Part shown: piece by piece, positions 13,649 to 18,204 of the stretch
How the letters are laid out: each line of letters begins with the position of its first letter
Position numbering within the stretch: the first letter of the stretch is position 1
Origin: Thermobifida fusca NBRC 14071 = JCM 3263
GTDB taxonomy: Bacteria; Actinomycetota; Actinomycetes; Streptosporangiales; Streptosporangiaceae
NCBI RefSeq assembly: GCF_001592045.1
Contig: NZ_BCWB01000034.1
Coordinates: 1 to 64,000 of the forward strand
DNA: 64,000 nucleotides
Direction of reading: 5' to 3'
Notes under the pieces: generated by a model
Seen by the model: only the letters and a program-made list of their open reading frames with translations
Told to the model about the DNA's origin: nothing
Databases searched by the model: none
Made by a program: the position numbers and the translations under genes

Positions 13649-14056
13649 GTGGAGCGCACCCTTGTCCTGATCAAGCCCGATGGCGTGCGGCGCAACATCA
13701 TCGGCGAGGTCATCTCCCGTATCGAGCGCAAGGGCCTCAAGATCGTCGCCATGGAGCTGCGCACCCTGGACGAAGAGACCGCGAAAGCGCATTACGAGGA
13801 GCACGTCGAAAAGCCGTTCTTCTCGTCGCTGGTGGAGTTCATCACCGGCGGCCCGCTGGTCGCCATGGTGGTGGAGGGCAACCGGGCGATCGAGGCGTTC
13901 CGCTCCCTGGCGGGCGCCACCGACCCGGTCCTCGCCGCTCCCGGCACCATCCGCGGCGACTACGGTCTCGACGTCCAGGCCAACATCGTCCACGGTTCGG
14001 ACTCCACCTACTCGGCCGAGCGCGAGATCAAGCTCTTCTTCCCTGACCTGGCCTGA
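13649..14056 (+). CDS. ndk: nucleoside diphosphate kinase
   Basis: The 135-residue enzyme has the standard Ndk size. It starts [15 protein letters not shown] and has the catalytic-histidine motif NIVHGSDS near residue 117. It transfers gamma-phosphate between nucleoside triphosphates and diphosphates through phosphohistidine. GTG 13649 is set by AAGGAGA at 13634-13640. A near-perfect terminator follows (14104-14138). Confidence 0.97.
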
Positions 14057-14103
14057 ACCGGGCAGAACTCTCTTACCACCGGCTACGGCACGACGCAGAC
14101 CTA

Positions 14104-14147
14104 CCGCGGCCAGGCGGAGCATTCCGCCTGGCCGCGGTGCTTTTTCC
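14104..14147 (+). terminator. rho-independent terminator of ndk
   Basis: Fifteen-base arms (ccgcggccaggcgga / tccgcctggccgcgg) around a GCAT tetraloop, followed by TGCTTTTTCC. The strongest terminator in this part of the window; it isolates ndk from the PBP2-like gene. Confidence 0.9.
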
Positions 14148-14461
14148 ACCACGGTGCGACAAACCGGCGCGTTTGTGTAACTAACCAGATTCATAGAGTT
14201 ACTCTGGGAGTGATCGGGGCAGGTAGCGCACGACGACCTGCGCGGTCGTGCCATGCCCGCAGACGGGCAGCGCTCCTGTCCGGTGCGGCGCGGACCCGGG
14301 ACTACCGGGCCGATCCGCGATGCCCAGGACAGCGATCCTCGGCACGAGCGCAACCGTGGCGGGGAGAGGAACGCCAGCCCGGCCGGGTGCCGCTGGCGAT
14401 AACGCCTCCACAGACAGTCCAACCGCAACCGCGCGGTGTGGCCACTAGGGGGGAGGAGGCC
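14148..14461 (+). other. intergenic region before the PBP2-like gene
   Basis: No gene is seen in these 314 bases. A GTAACT / AGTTAC inverted repeat (14177-14182 and 14197-14202, 14-base spacer) sits in an AT-richer patch and may mark the promoter of the rodA transcript. GGGGGGAGGAGG, the ribosome site of the next gene, closes the region. Confidence 0.35.
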
Positions 14462-14827
14462 ATGGGGGAGTCGAACAGAAGCGTCAAACGGTGGTCTCGC
14501 GGTGTCTGCGAGCACGGACCGGTCCTCGCCGCTCAGGCACTGGTGGTGTGCTTGCTGGCGCTGCTGATCGGCAGGTTGTGGTACCTCCAAGTGCCCATGG
14601 GGGAGTACTACCGGGCACTGGCCGGAGCGAACCGCGGCGAAGCCGTCTCCAGCGACCTCGAACAGCGTCTTGACGCCGTAGGCCAGCAGGACTCCGACGG
14701 AGCGGTCCTCACCGCTGCAGCCGCGGGCCAGCCAGCGACCGCGTCGTACCCGCATGACGAGACGATCCTTGCCCGCACCTCCTCGGTCTTCGGGGACGGA
14801 ACGGCCGCCCGTCCGGCCGACGAATGA
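14462..14827 (+). pseudogene. truncated PBP2-like protein (N-terminal anchor only)
   Basis: A 121-residue product with one transmembrane segment (about 18-38) followed by RLWYLQVPMGEYYRALAGANR, the juxtamembrane signature of class B penicillin-binding proteins (PBP2/MrdA). The rest of PBP2, including the transpeptidase domain with SxxK, SxN and KTG, is absent; after about residue 65 the sequence becomes an unrelated Ala/Ser-rich tail ending at a TGA that overlaps the rodA ATG. In Streptomyces and others rodA (sfr) follows a full-length pbp2 after mreBCD. Either this is a remnant kept for coupling, or a small RodA partner. The strong GGGAGGAGG site and intact frame argue that it is still translated. 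Confidence 0.6.
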
Positions 14828-16047
14828 TCCGGAAGGCCCGTATGTCGCTCCGCTTCGCGCAGGCCATGCGCCTGCCCGCACCGCTGCCGCACGTCAGCCA
14901 GGTCGCCGCCCGGATGCTGCCCCGCCACCTCGACGGGGTGCTTCTCGGAGCGGCGGTCACGCTCAGCATGGTGGGCGCCTTGCTGGTGTGGTCCGCCACC
15001 CTCCCGCCCACCGGACATGCCGGTCCGACGGTCTACGCCTGGCGACACCTGGGGCACCTGCTGCTGGCCCTGCCGCTCTGCCTCGCGCTCGCGTCGCTCA
15101 CCCGGCGGGCACTCCGCGCCTACACTCCGGTGCTCTTCGTGGCCGTCACCGTGGCGCTGCTGCTCGTCCTCGGGCCCCTGGGGGAGACCGTCAACGGGTC
15201 CCGCTCGTGGATCGCACTCGGCGACTTGCGCGTCCAGCCCGCGGAGACCGCCAAGATCGCGCTCATCCTGGCCGTCGCCGCGGTGCTGGGCCGGCCCCGG
15301 CCGAGGACCCCACGGCCCCCTGCCTCAGACGTGTTGATCAGCTTGGGGGTCGCAGCGGTACCGATCGGGCTGATCCTGTTGCAACCGGACCTGGGAAGCG
15401 CCCTGGTGCTGACCGCGATCTATCTCGCTCTGCTCGCCTGCTCGGGGGCGCCGCTGCGCTGGCCGCTCGCCCTGCTCGGCTGCGGCGCGTTCACCGGTCT
15501 CGCGGTATGGCAGCTCGGCCTGCTCAAGGACTACCAGGTAGCGCGGTTCACGGCCTTCCTCGACCCGCACGCGGACCCGCTGGGCGCCGGATACAACGTC
15601 AACCAGGCGCTCATCGCGGTCGGCTCGGGCGGCCTGAGCGGCTCCGGGCTCTTCCACGGCGGGCAGACCAGCGGCAAGTTCGTCCCAGAACAGCACACCG
15701 ACTTCGTCTTCAGTGTCGCAGCCGAGGAACTCGGTTTCGCGGGGGGATGCGCGGTCATCGTCCTGCTCGGAGTCGTCCTCTTGCGTATCCTGCGGGTCGC
15801 TTCCCGCTGTGACGAGGTCCACGGCCGCTTGGTCTGCATCGGGGTGGCGGCCTGGTTCTGTGTCCAAGTATTCGTCAACATCGGGATGACGCTGGGCCTC
15901 ACCCCGGTCACCGGGCTCCCACTGCCGTTCGTCTCCTATGGGGGGAGCGCAGCCGTCGCGAACTTCGCCGCGCTCGGCCTGGTCATGGCGGTCCACGCGC
16001 ACAACGAAGAGCGCCGTTCCCTGGAACCGGCGGGCACGAGGGGCTGA
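14824..16047 (+). CDS. rodA: RodA/FtsW-type SEDS peptidoglycan glycosyltransferase
   Basis: A 407-residue polytopic protein (about ten helices) of the SEDS family. Visible markers are NGSRSWI, the FSVAAEELGF stretch and the C-terminal PLPFVSYGGS loop. SEDS proteins polymerise lipid II with a class B PBP partner. Its ATG overlaps the stop of the truncated PBP2-like gene (ATGA), the same coupling seen for real pbp2-rodA pairs. No mreBCD genes are nearby. It could act in division, spore or branch wall synthesis rather than in MreB-driven elongation. The RodA name is based on context and loop motifs, and FtsW-like paralogue remains possible. Confidence 0.85.
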   Translation: MIRKARMSLRFAQAMRLPAPLPHVSQVAARMLPRHLDGVLLGAAVTLSMVGALLVWSATLPPTGHAGPTVYAWRHLGHLLLALPLCLALASLTRRALRAYTPVLFVAVTVALLLVLGPLGETVNGSRSWIALGDLRVQPAETAKIALILAVAAVLGRPRPRTPRPPASDVLISLGVAAVPIGLILLQPDLGSALVLTAIYLALLACSGAPLRWPLALLGCGAFTGLAVWQLGLLKDYQVARFTAFLDPHADPLGAGYNVNQALIAVGSGGLSGSGLFHGGQTSGKFVPEQHTDFVFSVAAEELGFAGGCAVIVLLGVVLLRILRVASRCDEVHGRLVCIGVAAWFCVQVFVNIGMTLGLTPVTGLPLPFVSYGGSAAVANFAALGLVMAVHAHNEERRSLEPAGTRG

Positions 16048-16269
16048 TCCTGGAGCTCTGGCACGCGGCGGCCACCCGCCGCCCAGGGCGGCGAAAAATC
16101 TGTCCGAACGCTGTTCACAGTCCGGTAGCGTTGATCATCTGAGCCCGCAACGGGTACCAGGAGGACTCGACGATTCACCAGAGTCGAGGAAAGGCGCTTA
16201 TGCTGACAAGCACAGGCGCTGTCTTCTGGCCGTCGTCGAACGACCGCGAACGTGAGGCCCGTTTTCCCG

Positions 16270-18204
16270 ATGACTGTCGAATCCGTCTTCCCACAGTTGG
16301 AAGCGTTGCTGCCCCACGTGCAAAAACCGATCCAGTACGTGGGTGGTGAGCTGAACTCCGTCGTCAAGGAGTGGGACGACGCAGAAGTCCGGTGGGCACT
16401 GATGTACCCCGACGCCTATGAGGTTGGCGTGCCCAACCAGGGGGTCCAGATCCTCTACGAGATCCTCAACGAACGCGAGGGTGTACTCGCCGAACGCGCC
16501 TACGCGGTCTGGCCCGACCTGGAGAAACTCATGCGCGAGCACGGGGTCCCGCACTTCACCGTGGACTCCCACCGGCCGCTCGCCGCCTTCGACGTCCTCG
16601 GGGTCAGCTTCGCCAGCGAGATGGGCTACACCAACCTGCTCACTGCGCTGGACTTGGCGGGCATCCCGCTGCACGCGGTGGACCGCACCGACGAGCACCC
16701 GATCGTGCTGGCGGGCGGACACGCCATGTTCAACCCGGAGCCTATCGCCGACTTCCTGGACGCCGTGGTCCTGGGGGACGGCGAGGAGATCGCGATCGCG
16801 ATCACCGAACTCATCCGGGAGTTCCGCCGGGAAGGGTCCCCGGGGGGACGCGACGAGCTGCTGTCCCGCCTGGCCGCCACCGGCGGGGTGTACGTGCCCA
16901 AGTTCTACGACGTCACCTACCTTCCGGACGGGCGGATCGAAAAGTACGTGCCCAACCGTCCCGGCGTCCCGTGGCGGGTGCAGAAGCACACCGTCATGAA
17001 CCTCGACGACTGGCCCTACCCGAAGAACCCGATCGTTCCGATCGCCGAGTCCGTCCACGAGCGCTACAGCGTGGAGATTTTCCGTGGCTGCACGCGCGGC
17101 TGCCGGTTCTGCCAGGCCGGAATGATCACCCGCCCGGTGCGGGAGCGCAGCGAGAAGGCGATCGCCGCCATGGTCGACCACGGGCTGCGCTCCTCGGGAT
17201 TCCAGGAGGTCGGCCTGCTCTCCCTGTCGAGCGCCGACCACAGCCAGATCAGCGAGATCACCAAGAACCTCGCGGACCGTTACGAAGGCACCCACACCGG
17301 GCTCTCGCTGCCCTCCACCCGGGTCGACGCCTTCAATATCGACTTGGCCAACGAGCTGACCCGTAACGGACGCCGCTCCGGGCTCACGTTCGCACCCGAG
17401 GGCGGCAGCGAGCGGATGCGTCGGGTCATCAACAAGATGGTCACCGAAGAGGACCTGATCCGCACGGTCACCGCGGCCTACGCGGCGGGGTGGCGCCAGG
17501 TCAAGCTGTACTTCATGTGCGGGCTGCCCACCGAGGAGGACGCCGACGTCCTCGCCATCGCCGACCTCGCCCGCAAGGTCATCAAGACGGGGCGTGAGGT
17601 CACCGGGCGTCGTGACATCCGCTGCACGGTGTCCATCGGCGGTTTCGTCCCGAAACCGCATACCCCCTTCCAGTGGGCGGGTCAGGCCCCCCACGAGGTC
17701 GTCGACAGCCGACTGCGGAAGCTGCGGGACGCCCTGCGCTCCGACCGGGAGTACGGCAAGTCCATCGGGCTGCGCTACCACGAGGGACGGCCGTCCATCA
17801 TCGAAGGCCTCCTCTCCCGAGGCGATCGCCGGCTGTGCCGGGTCGTGGAGCGGGTGTGGCGCGAAGGCGGCCGTTTCGACGGGTGGAGCGAGTACTTCTC
17901 CTACGAGCGCTGGGTGAAGGCCGTCGAAGAAGAGCTGGCCGACGAGCCCGTGGACTTGGACTGGTACACGGTGCGCGAGCGCGATGCCGATGAGGTGCTG
18001 CCCTGGGACCACCTGGACGCCGGACTGGATCGGGAGTGGCTCTGGCAGGACTGGCAGGACGCCTTGCACGGCGAGGAAGCGGTGGAGGTCGACGACTGCC
18101 GCTGGAGCCCCTGCTACGACTGCGGGGTCTGCCCGAGCATGGGAACCCAGATCCAGACCCACGGCGTTCCGGGACGCAAACTGCTTCCGCTGAGCGTGGT
18201 ATGA
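16270..18204 (+). CDS. B12-binding/radical SAM protein (TIGR03960 type)
   Basis: A 644-residue protein. The N-terminal region (about 1-230) resembles the B12-binding-like fold of YgiQ-type proteins; the radical SAM core follows with the 4Fe-4S motif CTRGCRFC near residue 275. The C-terminal part carries WSPCYDCGVC, extra cysteines for a possible auxiliary cluster. This family (TIGR03960) is nearly always next to a DUF2344 (TIGR03936) protein, as here, and near rne-rplU-rpmA. Its reaction is not established; tRNA or rRNA modification is an attractive guess from the context. ATG 16270 was chosen; GTG 16252 would add six residues. Confidence 0.85.
   Translation: MTVESVFPQLEALLPHVQKPIQYVGGELNSVVKEWDDAEVRWALMYPDAYEVGVPNQGVQILYEILNEREGVLAERAYAVWPDLEKLMREHGVPHFTVDSHRPLAAFDVLGVSFASEMGYTNLLTALDLAGIPLHAVDRTDEHPIVLAGGHAMFNPEPIADFLDAVVLGDGEEIAIAITELIREFRREGSPGGRDELLSRLAATGGVYVPKFYDVTYLPDGRIEKYVPNRPGVPWRVQKHTVMNLDDWPYPKNPIVPIAESVHERYSVEIFRGCTRGCRFCQAGMITRPVRERSEKAIAAMVDHGLRSSGFQEVGLLSLSSADHSQISEITKNLADRYEGTHTGLSLPSTRVDAFNIDLANELTRNGRRSGLTFAPEGGSERMRRVINKMVTEEDLIRTVTAAYAAGWRQVKLYFMCGLPTEEDADVLAIADLARKVIKTGREVTGRRDIRCTVSIGGFVPKPHTPFQWAGQAPHEVVDSRLRKLRDALRSDREYGKSIGLRYHEGRPSIIEGLLSRGDRRLCRVVERVWREGGRFDGWSEYFSYERWVKAVEEELADEPVDLDWYTVRERDADEVLPWDHLDAGLDREWLWQDWQDALHGEEAVEVDDCRWSPCYDCGVCPSMGTQIQTHGVPGRKLLPLSVV

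Follow-up and report, generated by a model that had tools for sequence, protein, structure and literature searches.

A class B PBP gene reduced to its membrane anchor, which is under purifying selection, beside rodA in Thermobifida fusca

Can a class B PBP gene outlive its own enzymatic function and, if so, which part of it would selection keep? This question is raised by a short open reading frame (ORF) directly upstream of an mre-type rodA gene in T. fusca, a heat-loving soil actinomycete. The window, i.e. the whole stretch of DNA analyzed, comprises 64,000 nucleotides of the 3.64-Mb T. fusca genome (G000; referred to as Tfu), and the features discussed are listed in Table 1. We refer to the product of the ORF, a PBP2 remnant of 121 residues, as P0001.

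Table 1. Positions of the features in the window and, in the last five rows, of the second pbp2-rodA pairs in genus g23
Feature	Position	Strand	Basis
ndk, left neighbor of the mre cluster in relatives compared	13649..14056	+	ORF, gene order
Terminator-like stem-loop 3' of ndk	14102..14139	+	1 found versus 0.8 expected from shuffled sequences
Conserved upstream element GTGCGACAAACCGGCGCGTTTGTGTAACTA...AGAGTTAC with inverted half-sites GTAACT/AGTTAC	14154..14202	+	comparison with relatives
Shine-Dalgarno-like AGGAGG upstream of the remnant	14454..14459	+	sequence
PBP2 anchor remnant P0001, 121 aa plus stop	14462..14827	+	translation, TIGR03423 match
Conserved anchor: transmembrane helix, RLWYLQV motif and juxtamembrane helix (residues 18-59)	14513..14638	+	pN/pS, AlphaFold2
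Drifting linker	14639..14788	+	DNA identity and pN/pS against G040
PBP2 C-terminal tail vestige, GDGTAARPADE (RPDGTVRPLDK in T. cellulosilytica)	14789..14824	+	tail comparison
GGAAGG, probable rodA ribosome site	14831..14836	+	purine-rich, before conserved rodA start
rodA, mre-type, conserved start MSLR at 14842 (longest ORF from 14824)	14842..16047	+	TIGR02210, start conservation
TIGR03960 radical SAM gene, right neighbor of rodA	16252..18204	+	TIGR03960
g23 second pbp2-rodA pair, L217	2484-3608		
g23 second pbp2-rodA pair, L218	2265-3422		
g23 second pbp2-rodA pair, L219			
g23 second pbp2-rodA pair, L220			
g23 second pbp2-rodA pair, L222			

The translated reading frame is uninterrupted over all 121 amino acids. 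Residues 22-60 of P0001 aligned to positions 4-42 of the 593 positions of TIGR03423 (pbp2_mrdA) with 21.5 bits (E 7.3e-5), far below the whole-model cut-off of 455 bits. At E <= 10, P0001 matched neither the Pfam transpeptidase domain (PF00905, which holds SxxK, SxN, and KTG) nor the pedestal or dimerization domain (PF03717); both domains were detected in the full PBP2 of T. cellulosilytica. What P0001 does retain is the anchor feature of class B PBPs, a transmembrane anchor with the Arg and Gln of RLWYLQV, and columns Leu-31, Leu-35, Arg-38, Gln-43, Tyr-50, and Ala-54 were invariant across the 28 rows of the anchor alignment. For the remnant alone, AlphaFold2 predicted a single long helix spanning residues 19-76 (mean pLDDT 96 for residues 21-30 and 97 for residues 31-40) followed by a low-confidence tail (pTM 0.35). 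Searched against family genomes, P0001 found matches in 137 of 200 at E <= 0.01, which need not all be PBP2, and matched the three other Thermobifida genomes at E 2.3e-18 to 2.9e-17; the ORF is therefore no product of chance. A PDB search with P0001 returned marginal matches only (a dioxygenase at best, E 0.065; PBP2B, 0.39; MrdA, 0.98), and a tblastn search of plasmids returned no match to the remnant. An earlier note on this DNA had claimed that the product keeps the PBP2 anchor beside rodA and has lost the transpeptidase, and translation, TIGR03423, and Pfam bear this out.

Four named Thermobifida species are recorded at NCBI, and we compared four genomes of the genus: Tfu, G040, G111, and T. 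cellulosilytica TB100 (G086). The remnant is present in three of the four, and T. cellulosilytica has a full PBP2. The gene order is ndk-mreB-pbp2-rodA in T. cellulosilytica, with a pbp2 of 705 codons; ndk-mreB-remnant-rodA in G111, where the remnant has 99 residues; and ndk-remnant-rodA in Tfu. In G040, the start of mreB survives as a scrap between ndk and a remnant of 115 residues (counted from an in-frame ATG), which is followed by rodA; we noted this N-terminal scrap (L033) by eye in the translation. A PF06723 search found intact mreB in G111 and T. cellulosilytica, and in Tfu and G040 it found no mreB, only a frame of 623 amino acids that is probably DnaK-like. A second, lower-scoring MreB-like match in G111 and T. 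cellulosilytica is likewise missing in Tfu and G040. MreC (PF04085) was absent from all four Thermobifida genomes and was found in all three neighboring genomes searched. A search for mreB, as proposed earlier, thus found it gone from Tfu, together with MreC. Each Thermobifida genome has four SEDS genes, and the PF00905 domains number 7, 7, and 7 in the remnant genomes versus 8 in T. cellulosilytica. The fourth SEDS gene (L165-L168) occurs in all four genomes, and its Tfu contig is without a listed PF00905 match.

All three remnants keep the anchor, the juxtamembrane helix, a frame open to the ancestral end, and a vestige of the PBP2 C-terminal tail before rodA, the tails ending in ...RPGGTVRLLDE (G111), ...PDGAVRPVDE (G040), and ...GDGTAARPADE (Tfu); the full PBP2 of T. 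cellulosilytica ends in ...RPDGTVRPLDK. Because the vestige of the C-terminal tail is kept, the remnant must have arisen by internal in-frame deletion and not by simple C-terminal truncation. Between G111 and T. cellulosilytica, blastn homology ends near pbp2 codon 75 and restarts near codon 677; by these alignment ends alone, G111 is without T. cellulosilytica codons of about 76 to 676. Aligned with each other, the Tfu and G040 stretches form a single block that covers almost all of the interval (63% over 891 columns), and past the motif they differ little in length (84 and 86 residues); this points to a single deletion that both inherited from their ancestor. A frameshift or assembly error, which might hide a full pbp2 and which we looked for, was rejected: the frame is clean, and the same architecture is found in G040 (one contig) and G111 (two contigs).

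How often the transpeptidase domain was lost depends on where T. cellulosilytica falls in the genus. A tree of five flanking proteins (1785 columns) gave ((Tfu,G040)92,T. cellulosilytica)100 with G111 outside. Of the four alternatives compared in a topology test, for which the program warned of too few AU replicates, those grouping the remnant genomes without T. cellulosilytica were rejected (deltaL 72 and 101; AU p 0.00007 and 0.002), and pairing G040 with T. cellulosilytica gave deltaL 20 with an AU p of 0.019 and an SH p of 0.24, so that SH did not reject it. The rpoB tree (T. cellulosilytica+Tfu+G040, 97; Tfu+G040, 75) and the ftsW locus tree (100 and 79, respectively) agreed with the flanking proteins. 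The SEDS4 locus tree also placed G111 outside (100) but, contrary to the other trees, joined Tfu and T. cellulosilytica (100) on a long branch; the rodA_pkn locus tree placed T. cellulosilytica outside the three remnant genomes (bootstrap 48) and joined G040 to G111 (43). T. cellulosilytica is therefore nested among remnant-bearing genomes in four of the five locus trees, and the Tfu-G040 sister pair is not recovered in two of the five. With a full PBP2 inside the remnant group at four of five loci, the G111 loss appears independent of the Tfu loss, the fifth locus disagreeing weakly, and Thermobifida has probably lost the domain on at least two occasions. Were the rodA_pkn tree true, a single loss would be possible; were the SEDS4 tree true, there would have been three or more. 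A regain of PBP2 by transfer in T. cellulosilytica is unlikely, as MreB places this species with G111 (100) and both genomes are without MreC.

Selection on the remnant was assessed by pN/pS with Fisher p values, separately for the anchor (residues 18-59, 42 codons), whose boundaries were set around the PBP2 motif and not from Tfu-G040 similarity, and for the linker plus tail (62 aligned codons). In the main test, which is one genome pair (Tfu-G040) over 42 codons and lies wholly after the truncation only if the loss predates the Tfu-G040 split, the anchor gave a pN/pS of 0.208 (Sd 16.0 of 34.0, Nd 9.0 of 92.0; p 1.3e-5), whereas the linker plus tail gave 1.079 (p 0.76). Thus, between Tfu and G040, the anchor is under purifying selection, and everything in the ORF downstream of it drifts freely; selection is not relaxed over the whole frame, as it would be in a pseudogene. 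The other remnant pairs gave 0.256 (p 3e-5) for the anchor and 0.770 (p 0.11) for the linker plus tail (Tfu-G111) and 0.431 (p 0.03) and 1.014 (p 0.61), respectively (G040-G111). When full-length relatives were included, the anchor gave 0.332 for Tfu-T. cellulosilytica (p 0.001), 0.273 for Tfu-G042 (p 1e-5), and 0.345 for G111-T. cellulosilytica (p 0.03). The signal was weak for G040-T. cellulosilytica (0.687, p 0.29), G040-G042 (0.709, p 0.19), G111-G042 (0.709, p 0.26), and T. cellulosilytica-G042 (0.852, p 0.37); the strong signals thus lie mostly in pairs with Tfu, and power is low where synonymous divergence is low. DNA identity between Tfu and G040 was 80% in the anchor (101/126), 47% in the linker (70/149, counted over 14636-14788), 75% in the tail (27/36), 63% in the first 16 codons (26/41), and 54% in the upstream stretch that once was mreB (132/246). 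Random decay of the frame in sister species was also looked for, and in the two sister species with remnants the anchor has not decayed.

The partner gene looks intact. The rodA product exceeds the equivalog cut-off of TIGR02210 (362.6 versus 336.7 bits) and aligns with Escherichia coli RodA (8tj3_B) over residues 29-389 of 401 (E 8e-63) and with Thermus thermophilus RodA (6pl5) over residues 58-386 of 401. Its HTDF motif lines up with that of the E. coli protein, with the neighboring blocks kept; a passage of PMC10449877 names Asp-262 as the catalytic Asp of the E. coli enzyme. Between Tfu and G040, RodA is under purifying selection (pN/pS 0.401). Among 122 conserved RodA columns, none stood out as deviating solely in remnant lineages; 12 columns deviated in T. 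cellulosilytica, 14, 14, and 13 in the remnant genomes, and 3 in G042. The four Thermobifida genomes and G042 share the rodA start ATGTCGCT, which lies 14-16 nucleotides downstream of the preceding stop and has its own purine-rich ribosome site. This renders doubtful the ATGA overlap by which the remnant had been said to be coupled to rodA, and translational coupling could still operate over so short a distance. Upstream of the remnant, the core of the conserved element, GCG[TC]TTG[TC]GTAACTA, is present in all four Thermobifida genomes and G042 and absent from the stretches of six further genomes, and a sigma-70 scan of the region found no promoter. The element is probably a retained mre promoter region. 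Taken together with the hairpin after ndk, it suggests that the remnant and rodA probably form a transcription unit of their own, driven by the old mre promoter. We also note the inverted half-sites within the element as a possible regulator site.

Reduction of PBP2 to its anchor is rare among relatives. When the full T. cellulosilytica PBP2 was used as a query against 341 family genomes (E <= 1e-20), 335 matched; the three remnant genomes did so at 1.7e-24 (Tfu), 9.0e-23 (G040), and 4.1e-24 (G111), and each of the other 332 had a best E value of 2.1e-110 or better. The six genomes without a PBP2 match at this threshold (G047, G074, G035, G169, G053, and G166) also lack a close mre-type RodA, their best matches (1.4e-47 to 3.6e-20) being typical of paralogs, with an additional 97-residue fragment of 51% identity in G053. 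The RodA search covered these six, six further genomes, and PF01098 in the genus and three neighbors, and within that scope no genome, G053 aside, had an mre-type RodA without even the anchor. The region upstream of RodA was checked at 99 loci (L034 and L044 being one location). A frame of at least 540 residues with the anchor or catalytic motif was present at 86, 2 were the G040 and G111 remnants, and 11 were missed by the motifs. Of these 11, 6 gave a tblastn match to T. cellulosilytica PBP2 (L078 being cut by a contig end), and the contig of L076 begins just before rodA. In the remaining loci, L090, L092, L116, and L120, a RodA-type SEDS gene was present, and tblastn found no PBP2-like gene in the fetched stretch. 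These belong to three Streptomyces species and Actinomadura harenae, and the Actinomadura locus (L092) may belong to the same family as the 341 genomes searched. An adjacent PBP2 partner is therefore not universal, and a rule that RodA comes with an anchor is not general. In searches of the open-license literature, we recognized no report of a natural transpeptidase-less class B PBP beside RodA; PMC4255298 surveys the mre cluster in actinobacteria, including T. fusca, and the parts of its text consulted do not mention the remnant.

Published work on the RodA-PBP2 pair suggests what a lone anchor might do. According to passages of PMC10449877, E. coli RodA alone has residual activity, which the PBP2 transmembrane helix significantly stimulates. 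This holds for the full fusion as well as for a construct whose PBP2 part stops at residue 47. The helix is packed against helices 8 and 9 of RodA, and the authors regard the stimulation as consistent with earlier T. thermophilus results. There is no gap in the alignment of T. cellulosilytica PBP2 with E. coli PBP2 (8tj3_C) between residue 22 and the end of the anchor, and RLWYLQV begins at residue 38 in both T. cellulosilytica PBP2 and P0001, so that the end point of the E. coli construct corresponds to remnant residue 47. The remnant therefore contains a natural counterpart of the transmembrane-only construct plus the juxtamembrane helix; the E. coli fusion is a laboratory control with both parts joined, whereas the remnant is a separate natural protein extending through the juxtamembrane helix to about residue 59. 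Mutations described as affecting the complex in E. coli PBP2 (Q51L, T52N, and L61R among them, in a passage of PMC8078798) or as suppressing mreC defects (T52A and L61R, in a passage of PMC6207328) fall in or beside the juxtamembrane part that the remnant retains. Compared with the RodA-PBP2 elongasome pair, the Tfu locus shares an orthologous RodA (TIGR02210; 8tj3, 6pl5), a homologous anchor, and the gene order but is without the pedestal, the transpeptidase domain, MreB, and MreC. The mre cluster of Streptomyces (mreBCD-pbp2-sfr, of the spore wall synthesizing complex), as described in part of PMC4416010, likewise has pbp2 with a rodA homolog, and Tfu rodA would correspond to sfr by position, to judge from that description; PBP2 and MreBCD are present there, whereas Tfu has only the anchor and RodA. 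A passage of PMC12457691 proposes that another membrane protein, RagB (YrrS) of Bacillus subtilis, stimulates RodA, but RagB, as described there, comprises a disordered region as well as a folded extracellular domain and shows no sign of a PBP origin.

We consider it reasonably probable (about 0.6) that the ORF encodes a naturally occurring remnant, without catalytic function, of the class B PBP that paired with mre-type RodA, with its anchor selected for docking on RodA and stabilizing or activating it, while other enzymes crosslink. In a plausible order of events, MreC would have been lost first in the genus, leaving the periplasmic domain of PBP2 without its regulator and thus dispensable, and that domain would then have been deleted, probably at least twice. 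By docking on transmembrane helices 8 and 9 of RodA, the transmembrane and juxtamembrane helices (residues 18-59) would stabilize or activate the glycan polymerase, and crosslinking would fall to other transpeptidases. On this proposal, the anchor is kept by selection because RodA still needs it. RodA binding, RodA activation, and crosslinking in trans are what we infer. The earlier note had invoked contact of SEDS polymerases with both anchor and pedestal; since the pedestal is missing from the remnant (no PF03717), any activation would have to act through the transmembrane and juxtamembrane part alone. A counterpoint comes from T. thermophilus, where, according to a passage of PMC8078798, breaking the contact between the pedestal and ECL4 abolished PBP2 stimulation of RodA in vitro; the same source describes the FtsI transmembrane segment as seemingly sufficient for FtsW in vitro. 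Whether SEDS proteins need the anchor alone, as the transmembrane-only stimulation in E. coli (PMC10449877) suggests, or the anchor plus pedestal, as in T. thermophilus (PMC8078798), is a matter on which Thermobifida provides a natural experiment, with RodA and the anchor kept and the rest discarded, and with T. cellulosilytica and its whole PBP2 for comparison. Here, moreover, a class B PBP gene has outlived its enzymatic activity.

The earlier note had offered two readings, a minimal activator and simple decay after loss of the mre system, and the former is favored by the selection on the anchor, by the occurrence of the remnant in three of four genomes, and by the probable two or more losses. 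A pseudogene relic, in which the transpeptidase was lost, the rest is decaying, and the anchor looks conserved only because the loss was recent, would fit the disappearance of mreB and MreC from Tfu and the free drift of the linker, but it is quite improbable given that anchor and linker plus tail differ so sharply in pN/pS (0.21 versus 1.08) within the same ORF, that no stop interrupts the frame before the ancestral end in any of the three remnants, and that probably at least two independent losses arrived at the same final architecture. The part of the decay reading that concerns the mre system fares unevenly: G111 has an intact mreB and yet only a remnant, whereas the absence of MreC from all four Thermobifida genomes implies that a partial loss of the mre system came first.

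The closeness of rodA, the retained ribosome site and upstream element, and a C-terminal tail that is 75% identical to G040 in DNA next to rodA could also be explained if the ORF merely carried ribosomes into rodA and its peptide sequence were irrelevant. A pure leader does not predict amino acid selection in the anchor and none after it, however, and rodA comes with a ribosome site of its own, its conserved start lying 14-16 nucleotides past the stop, so we hold this to be most improbable. Less easily set aside, though still unlikely, is that the anchor has been retained for a different partner, or serves to place or restrain RodA (by recruitment, stability, or inhibition at the docking site) rather than to activate it, because the data show selection on the peptide and not which partner it has. 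Co-location with rodA and the stimulation by a transmembrane helix described in PMC10449877 make activation of RodA by the anchor the simplest account.

A parallel to the Thermobifida remnant was found in genus g23, where P0001 matched a second, shorter class B PBP in four of five genomes (G022, G104, G125, and G143, but not G077). These proteins, of 374, 377, 378, and 385 residues, keep the anchor but, as an alignment shows, lack the segments in which T. cellulosilytica PBP2 has SxxK, SxN, and KTG; an SxxK string occurs in none of the four, and G143 does contain SVN and KTG, at other places in its sequence. Directly after the short PBP, all four genomes have a RodA frame with HTDF and other motifs. 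The short PBP is under purifying selection (pN/pS 0.33-0.65 over six pairs, each p < 0.001), with RodA at 0.29-0.41. The same four genomes also match full PBP2 (E about 1e-200), and in G022, the genome checked, the full PBP2 is a frame of 740 residues (L221) between mreB and another RodA, so that the short PBP and its RodA form a second pair. Independently of Thermobifida, this suggests that a class B PBP without catalytic function can be retained as a partner of RodA. That Thermobifida RodA is a two-subunit polymerase whose PBP subunit evolved at least twice into a transmembrane-only activator, and would form with g23 a class of pseudo-class-B-PBPs, seems to us an evenly balanced proposition; if true, such proteins would separate RodA activation from transpeptidation in nature. 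We note that PF00905 still scored 72 and 69 bits on the two short g23 proteins scanned, and a family scan alone would therefore label them transpeptidases.
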